Assembly: GCA_944322725.1 (NCBI GenBank)
Contig: CALUPU010000014.1
Span: 1-39,945 of the forward strand
Origin: Candidatus Gastranaerophilales bacterium
Lineage (GTDB): Bacteria > Cyanobacteriota > Vampirovibrionia > Gastranaerophilales > Gastranaerophilaceae
Direction of reading: 5' to 3'
Length of the DNA stretch: 39,945 bases
Shown: positions 2,895 through 31,583 of the stretch, in pieces
How positions within the stretch are numbered: position 1 is the first letter of the stretch
Layout: each line of letters starts with the position of its first letter
Notes under the pieces: generated by a model
Told to the model about the DNA's origin: nothing
What the model saw: only the letters and a program-made list of their open reading frames with translations
The model's database searches: none
Made by a program: the position numbers and the translations under genes

Positions 2895-3082
2895 GATACA
2901 AAAAATAATTTTTTAGACCTGCTGTTACATTCCAACAGAAACTAACTTTAACCTGTGTCCGATAACTCGGGCTTTTTAAGTTTAATTAATTTCCAAAGCC
3001 CTCAGACAAATCGGACTGGTTGTTGTCAAAGAAATTTTCTGTATCTCATTTCACAAAGGTCTAAAAAATTATTTTTTGTATC
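2895..3082. repeat. Structured inverted-repeat element, copy A
   Basis: Perfect 26-nt inverted arms (2895-2920 and 3057-3082) enclose 136 nt. Read on the minus strand, the interior has TTGTCTGAGGGCTTT and AAAGCCCGAGTTATCGG separated by a loop. GGGCT/AGCCC pairs, and GTCCGAT/ATCGGAC forms an outer stem. The same TGTCTGAG...CGAGTT core recurs at 21494-21678 and 31384-31583 with other arms. It lies between the radical SAM gene and the downstream end of the HTH/coiled-coil gene. It could be a structured RNA, a terminator-like element or a cruciform repeat. Confidence 0.8.
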
Positions 3083-3098
3083 CGGAATATCAATAATT

Positions 3099-3743
3099 TT
3101 ACAACAGTGATGAGTCGCCTGATTTTTTTACATAAAAACCAAGACCAAGTGACTTGTAACGGCTCAATTCATTTTTTAAATTATACAATTCTTTGTTTAA
3201 CTCGTTCATCTTGTAGCGGAGCGTCTCGTTTTCTGTCTTGCAGCGTACGAGTTCTACGACCACTTCATCCATACCATCGAGTTTTTCATCGAGTTTTTTC
3301 TCAATGAGGTCTGAGATTTTTCCTGTGATGCTTTCTTCCATTGCCGTAAGTGAGTTGCAGATTTTATCTACCGCTTTTACGGGTACGGCAGGAATCTGTT
3401 GAGTCTGTATGGCACGCTGTACAGGGGGCTGGTTAACAGGCGGCTGAATAACAGGCATCTGACCTGCAACAGGCTGTGATTTGACAGGTATGGTAACATA
3501 AGATTTTTTCACTTTTTTCTGCATTTTTGAAGTTTCGTCATTAAGGTTTTTCATACGTCTTAATGTTTCAACATCTTCTTGCGAAAAATAAGTTCTGCCG
3601 TGAAGGTCTTTTTTCGGCATCATTGAAACCTGTGCGCAAAGCTTTGCAATAGTTTTGTTGTCAATATTTAAAAGGTTTCTTACTGTTTCTACGGAGAAGT
3701 TTTGAAGTTTTGTCTTTGTGTGACCGTTAATTATGTTAGCCAA
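3099..3743 (-). CDS. Unknown protein with N-terminal helix-turn-helix-like region, Pro/Gln linker and coiled coil
   Basis: I do not recognise a named family. Residues about 15-65 (FSVETVRNLLNIDNKTIAKL ... RTYFSQEDVETLRRM) resemble a MerR/excisionase-type winged helix that reads a helix and then a YFSQEDV wing. Residues about 85-125 are rich in Pro, Gln and Val. Residues about 130-200 have heptad-like Leu/Glu/Lys spacing typical of a coiled coil. A DNA-binding head on a dimerising tail is the simplest reading. The start is TTG at 3743, supported by AGAGGA eight bases upstream; no ATG fits. It ends close to repeat copy A and starts after the hairpin at 3862-3949. Confidence 0.7.
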   Translation of the reverse strand: MANIINGHTKTKLQNFSVETVRNLLNIDNKTIAKLCAQVSMMPKKDLHGRTYFSQEDVETLRRMKNLNDETSKMQKKVKKSYVTIPVKSQPVAGQMPVIQPPVNQPPVQRAIQTQQIPAVPVKAVDKICNSLTAMEESITGKISDLIEKKLDEKLDGMDEVVVELVRCKTENETLRYKMNELNKELYNLKNELSRYKSLGLGFYVKKSGDSSLL

Positions 3744-3861
3744 TGCAGTGTCCTCTTGACCTATATTTGATATATTAATTATAAGTATTATATTTCAAAG
3801 CGCTCTTGTTTTAAACACTAAAGTCAAATATCTTTACAATCTTAATCATCTGCAATTACAA

Positions 3862-3949
3862 AAAAAAATACAAAATATTCCTTTTTCTCGCTCGGTTCGC
3901 TTGTTCCACGTCTCACAGGCTTCGAAAAAGAAATATTTTGTATTTTTTT
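3862..3949. repeat. Long AT-rich hairpin with GC-rich loop (class 2 element)
   Basis: Arms 3862-3887 and 3924-3949 are complementary over 25 of 26 bases and enclose a 36-nt loop. On the minus strand the loop reads from GAAGCCTGTGAGACG to CCGAGCGAG, and the following arm ends in a T run. It starts six bases after the stop of the zinc-ribbon gene, so it may be that gene's terminator. The element at 9751-9863 shares GCC-TGTGAG-RCG and GAGCGAG. Confidence 0.75.
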
Positions 3950-21493: not shown

Positions 21494-21678
21494 ATTATAT
21501 GAGAAAATATATTATTTTTAAATCTTATACGGAACTTTGTAGAACAACTTATCGAAACAACTTCAAGGCGAGTGTGTCTGAGGCTGTGTAACAGCCGAGT
21601 TCGCGAGCCTGAAGTTGAGATTAGTTGTTATAAAAGTGAAGTATCTGGATTTAAAAATAATATATTTTCTCATATAAT
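21494..21678. repeat. Structured inverted-repeat element, copy B
   Basis: Perfect 31-nt AT-rich arms (21494-21524 and 21648-21678) enclose 123 nt. The plus-strand interior folds further: AACAACT/AGTTGTT, AACTTCA/TGAAGTT, and a terminal GGCTGTGTAACAGCC hairpin set between TGTCTGAG and CGAGTT. About 90 nt of this interior match the reverse complement of copy C nearly base for base, while the arms differ entirely. Each arm contains an outward-facing TTTAAA-17-TATAAT pair. It separates the divergent 96-aa gene and uppS. Confidence 0.85.
21650..21678 (+). promoter_or_regulatory. Putative promoter of uppS within the right arm of repeat copy B
   Basis: TTTAAA (21650-21655) and TATAAT (21673-21678) are 17 bp apart, 34 bp before the uppS start. 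Because the left arm is its exact inverted copy, the same pair faces the other way there. Confidence 0.45.
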
Positions 21679-31383: not shown

Positions 31384-31583
31384 CGGTTTTTGTTTACTTC
31401 TAATCTTGATGCTGCGCTTTTAAAACAACTAATCTCAACCACAGGCTCGCGAACTCGGGCTGTATATTCCTAAAAGTAAGACATAAAAAATAATTACTCA
31501 GCCCTCAGACACACTCGCCTTGATGTTGTTTTGATAAGTTGTTCTACAAAGCTTCGCATAGGATTTTCCGTAAACAAAAACCG
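31384..31583. repeat. Structured inverted-repeat element, copy C
   Basis: Perfect 14-nt arms (31384-31397 and 31570-31583) enclose 172 nt. Read on the minus strand, the interior matches copy B across CTTTGTAGAACAACTTATC, GGCGAGTGTGTCTGAGG, CGAGTTCGCGAGCCTG and GTTGAGATTAGTTGTT. Its central loop between GGGCT and AGCCC is longer than in B. It fills the gap between the convergent DUF4127 and phosphohexomutase genes, where it could also act as a two-way terminator. Confidence 0.85.

Follow-up and report, generated by a model that had tools for sequence, protein, structure and literature searches.

Several described systems resemble the elements analysed here. REPINs and REP sequences are short, non-coding, intergenic, multi-copy and hairpin-forming (PMC3116915). 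The present elements share this character; however, their core is much longer, their arms are private to each copy and they have no link to a Y1 transposase of the RAYT type. Like MITEs and other bacterial small mobile repeats, they are small, dispersed and non-autonomous in appearance, and a subset of copies is located in units whose inverted ends are constant; in contrast to MITEs, most examined copies lack constant terminal repeats, and the constant part is the centre. Inverted pairs of dif-like sites around some copies recall the dif modules (XerC/D) of Acinetobacter, although the units here are very short, no gene was seen inside them and Xer action is putative. Template switching between the arms of inverted repeats has been shown to make the arms identical, to lengthen stems and to invert the spacer or loop (PMC8604942, PMC8794818), and the elements show comparable arm homogenisation, extension and spacer inversion. 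Whereas each known quasipalindrome case involves one site whose arms and spacer are short, the present ones form a dispersed family with cores of 120–190 nt that would carry the process from site to site, and their inverted spacers (ca. 100–180 nt) greatly exceed in length those of a yeast template-switching study.

The window, a stretch of 39,945 nt from a Candidatus Gastranaerophilales bacterium (contig CALUPU010000014.1), contains three copies at 2895–3082 (A), 21494–21678 (B) and 31384–31583 (C), as the original prediction had placed them. The predicted closing arms of 26, 31 and 14 nt were perfectly complementary within each copy. Copy B lies on the plus strand and has a left arm at 21494–21524 and a right arm at 21648–21678; its type I core (21517–21660, overlapping the inner arms) scored 161.6 bits with covariance model R1, which was built on genus-wide copies and also gave the other core scores in the window. 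Within this core are a 27-nt central motif (21575–21601) and two conserved tandem G-A motifs, GGC-GA-GTG (G-A step at 21570–21571, facing CGC-GA-GCC at 21605–21606) and CT-GA-GG (step at 21580–21581, facing CC-GA-GT at 21597–21598). A TATAAT in the right arm may be the −10 box of the uppS promoter, given a partial resemblance to the element-free uppS upstream region of G014. Relative to copy B, copies A and C are on the minus strand, which amends the predicted arrangement; the claimed likeness of B and C held, both having type I cores. Copy C comprises arms at 31384–31397 and 31570–31583 and a core at 31393–31569 with a 60-nt central motif (144.5 bits). Copy A, with arms at 2895–2920 and 3057–3082, has a diverged core (2906–3066, 103.5 bits) characterised by a TCCGAT/ATCGGA stem and a 45-nt central motif. 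When arms were swapped between copies, the longest pairing run had a median of 5 nt (95% at 8), no better than chance, compared with 31, 14 and 23 nt for the true pairs of the three window copies in this test, confirming that the arms are mutually unrelated. The fold of copy B was better than that of every shuffled sequence (DNA z −13.4). Separately, a perfect A+T-rich inverted repeat of 18 nt was observed at 3862–3949, its halves separated by a 52-nt spacer that lacks a core.

Further copies were abundant. BLAST with copy B matched 19 genomic positions, among them copy C and an opposite-strand match of copy B to itself, and a covariance model made from 21 cores also gave 19 matches plus fragments; all copy counts derive from such searches. 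The covariance model detected the element in 21 of 23 congeneric genomes and, across the order Candidatus Gastranaerophilales, in 69 of 192 sampled genomes (13 of 45 genera), all positive genomes of the order-wide sample falling in one family. Named records with the exact type I motif were mostly Candidatus Gastranaerophilales assemblies, and exact 18-mer matches in one assembly each of Clostridia, Armatimonadetes and Gammaproteobacteria are probably due to chance. At least two main subfamilies were recognised, type I (ca. 131–145 nt, more where the loop is large) and type II (ca. 186 nt), in addition to the copy A subtype, with an overall core length of ca. 120–190 nt. Copies sit between ordinary genes, and no recurrent associated gene was found. 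Rfam searches at gathering and relaxed thresholds returned nothing relevant; in the window and nine further loci, one unrelated tRNA was the sole sequence to pass the gathering threshold. Phage and plasmid collections gave no match, and no paper on repeats of this lineage was found. The family is thus unnamed and unrecorded in the sources searched here, in line with the original prediction, which linked the core to no named family.

Some loci had a more complex organisation. At L217 and L221 (G021:C3:239051–239448 and C17:5282–5678), a type I and a type II element lie ca. 25 nt apart in opposite orientation. At L139–L153 (genomes G012, G019 and G002), type II copies are followed, within a larger repeat, by a conserved second hairpin (CCACCCGTTCTTTGC...CAAAGAATGGGTGG) that might be terminator-like by analogy. 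The terminal loop contains another long hairpin or repeat at L269 and L270 (G004) and L256 (G010). In G000, contigs C20 (at its end, L015) and C19 (at its start, L018) stop inside halves of one element, and the complementary arms at these ends imply that the two contigs are probably adjacent in the chromosome.

One strand of the core forms a conserved fold that combines covarying helices with tandem G-A motifs. In an alignment of 57 distinct sequences fitted to the covariance model, whose structure itself derived from a MAFFT alignment, 89.7% of core pairing cells were paired. Two-sided pair changes occurred in 336 cells, exceeding the shuffled (111) and slid (30–63) controls, although related copies are not independent, so that pseudo-replication inflates these counts and p-values are indicative only. 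Mismatches were strand-specific, with G-T outnumbering A-C in the core (83 vs. 26) and in the arms (76 vs. 48), and G-A/A-G outnumbering C-T/T-C (354 vs. 55). Tandem G-A steps in a pyrimidine-GA-purine context recurred at two or three places, and a kink-turn or hammerhead-like reading of CTGAG...CGAGTT was among the candidates considered. Together, the strand-specific mismatches and G-A steps suggest recognition of one folded strand, with RNA and single-stranded DNA equally compatible. Indiscriminate correction would erase the bulges and G-A steps, yet these persist, so selection on pairing must act at least in the core; the G-T bias in the arms means that it contributes there too.

Comparison with relatives showed that several gene gaps were occupied in more than one species, namely flhA–fliI, ppiC–pepP, the L050/L235 site, recA–GNAT, lepA and pilD (gene names were assigned from reading of translations). 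These relatives are separate species, mostly ca. 80% identical at the compared sites (up to 98% at one), a level too low to fix the ends of the inserted unit when checking for target-site duplications. A tree of cores grouped copies by locus at ppiC–pepP (support 98/96), L050/L235 (95/89) and flhA–fliI (98/99), indicating that these insertions were inherited. At the same three loci, orthologous copies occur in both orientations and differ in their arms. Different subfamilies occupied the same gap at recA and at pilD, so reinsertion or replacement also occurs. In genome G014, two type II elements lie in opposite orientation on either side of recA (L135, G014:C38:2144–2331 and 3588–3774), and the upstream one has the arms found downstream of recA in relatives.

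The arms consist of two parts. The innermost 14–18 nt, often with a G-A bubble, belong to the element, and amplified copies take these inner arms along, whereas the outer part is private to the site yet complementary. Copies amplified within a genome have common arms, as seen for type I and type II in G021 and for the dif-bounded copies in G000. In ca. 660 kb of sequence drawn preferentially from around elements, an element was enclosed by nearly every perfect inverted repeat of at least 20 nt (spacer up to 300); the few repeats that failed the core filter were mostly element loci missed by the text pattern, with at least two exceptions. In several alignable families, both arms changed together, according to arm histories read by eye from the alignments. 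In the recA group (G001, G010 and G014), all six left-arm difference cells were matched on the right, each from paired to paired, against 0.8 expected. The dif-bounded family showed 12 two-sided arm changes against 2.8 expected, and at ppiC–pepP both arms were altered jointly in sequence and length. The flhA–fliI orthologues had one-sided decay (G010 and G007) and no two-sided changes, showing that arm correction is not universal.

Arm homogenisation together with in-place inversion of the core is the published signature of replication template switching. Among the options put forward originally, arms kept identical by template-switch repair was therefore the best supported, acting here on a mobile, structured element, and the concerted two-sided changes and core inversions at three orthologous loci argue for it. 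We consider it reasonably probable that hairpin elements spread among intergenic sites and were then inherited vertically, their arms being rewritten by template switching between them. The long hairpin would cause DNA polymerase to switch template between the two arms; if one arm were copied from the other, mismatches would vanish and the mirror could grow outward into flanking DNA, producing long perfect arms private to each site. A switch across the core would invert it in place. Similar cores would then reflect recent copies or constraint, and unrelated arms the rewriting of each site on its own. As a single process, template switching accounts for the perfection and privacy of the arms, for their concerted changes and for the flips, although it is deduced from end states between species rather than strains, and no step-by-step derivation of the present arms was reached for copies such as L010 and L050/L235.

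The original prediction had also raised a folded RNA under pairing selection, and this part stood for the core, on the covariation and strand-specific mismatches, and was insufficient for the arms taken alone. According to this explanation, a structured RNA or single-stranded DNA site is maintained by pairing selection alone, and its arms diverge by ordinary compensatory substitution. The preference for G-T over A-C, also seen in the G021 family arms (16 vs. 3), and the better predicted folding of the plus strand than of the minus strand (−51.6 vs. −39.5 kcal/mol) are consistent with it. However, within the single genome G000, near-identical cores carry arms that are unrelated over 25–31 nt, which is too much change for the age of the cores if it accumulated by single compensatory steps. 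Furthermore, the recA group shows three two-sided changes, of which two were transversions with no wobble intermediate, the ppiC arms show matching changes in length, and the flhA arms decay; we therefore regard pairing selection as the sole cause of the arms as rather unlikely.

Two further explanations concern the origin of the arms. If the core inserted into pre-existing perfect palindromes, these would later appear as its arms. Genome G010 has such a 34-bp palindrome, GCTTGAAATAATATTTATAAATATTATTTCAAGC, without a core at the L235 site, where G001 carries the element, and this was the one orthologous locus with arms and no core. A deletion between the 10-bp direct repeats ATTTATAAAT inside the arms gives exactly the G010 sequence, however, and the palindrome is absent from the other relatives G021, G006 and G018. 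The orthologous core of G000 at this site implies that the insertion probably predates the split of G001 and G010. Considering also the near absence of coreless perfect inverted repeats of at least 20 nt in the ca. 660 kb and the mere ca. 3–20 nt of intergenic DNA at the empty L012 sites, an origin from prior palindromes is very improbable. Alternatively, insertion itself could copy the target flank in inverted form, as the original prediction had also proposed, for example by fold-back priming from the inserted hairpin. In G014, the element-free upstream (promoter) region of uppS is partly similar to the right arm of copy B, and in species without the element the ribosome-binding region of fliI is similar to the arms on the flhA side, although both resemblances are short and weak. 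As a general rule, inverted flank copying was not supported: the recently amplified G021 copies retain their arms and mostly gain no new complementarity outside them, and the empty sites at L010 and L012 show no trace of either arm. The differing arms of orthologous copies likewise indicate rewriting after insertion, and flank copying at insertion seems a poor candidate.

With regard to the vehicle of spread, inverted pairs of a dif-like 20-mer (TTACATAATAMATATTATCA), separated by a few hundred bp and frequently enclosing a hairpin element, were found in G000 (C23:3910–4285, C16:9795–10139, C5:141920–142284 and C26:10498–10873); pairs around the element also occurred in G001, G021 and G012. 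Another pair in G000 (C5:60836–61105) was shorter than the others. By analogy with dif modules, such units of a few hundred bp are a plausible vehicle for several amplified copies. No dif-like sites were present at the window copies, so these units are not the whole story. The claim that the arms are not ordinary transposon ends was borne out: they are locus-specific and differ between orthologous copies, and constant terminal inverted repeats were confined to the dif-bounded subset, the window arms being related neither to one another nor to most other arms. A Y1 transposase (Y1_Tnp) was found in 8 of 23 genomes; it was rejected as a partner because it is missing from the copy-rich G021, G014, G010, G007 and G017, and none of 12 Y1 loci had an R1 match nearby. 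Integron attC sites were rejected because they have conserved R/L boxes at the ends and a variable centre, the reverse of the conserved centre and variable ends found here. A cis-regulatory leader was rejected in view of the lack of end conservation and the flipping of orientation inside an operon gap; copies facing opposite ways between the same two genes likewise speak against a fixed cis-regulatory RNA.

More speculatively, and with considerable doubt, the elements could represent a new type of mobile, folded element whose single-stranded RNA or DNA form is recognised via tandem sheared G-A motifs and for which replication template switching would be a normal part of the life cycle, building a private perfect stem and flipping orientation at every site. 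Near repeats of this kind, a functional RNA is not proved by perfect complementarity and two-sided changes alone. For the question of how long perfect stems originate and are kept up, this family, which occurs across much of an order of uncultured, non-photosynthetic gut cyanobacteria, offers a natural laboratory: its many copies per genome, known orthologous sites and both orientations allow template switching to be separated from compensatory selection.
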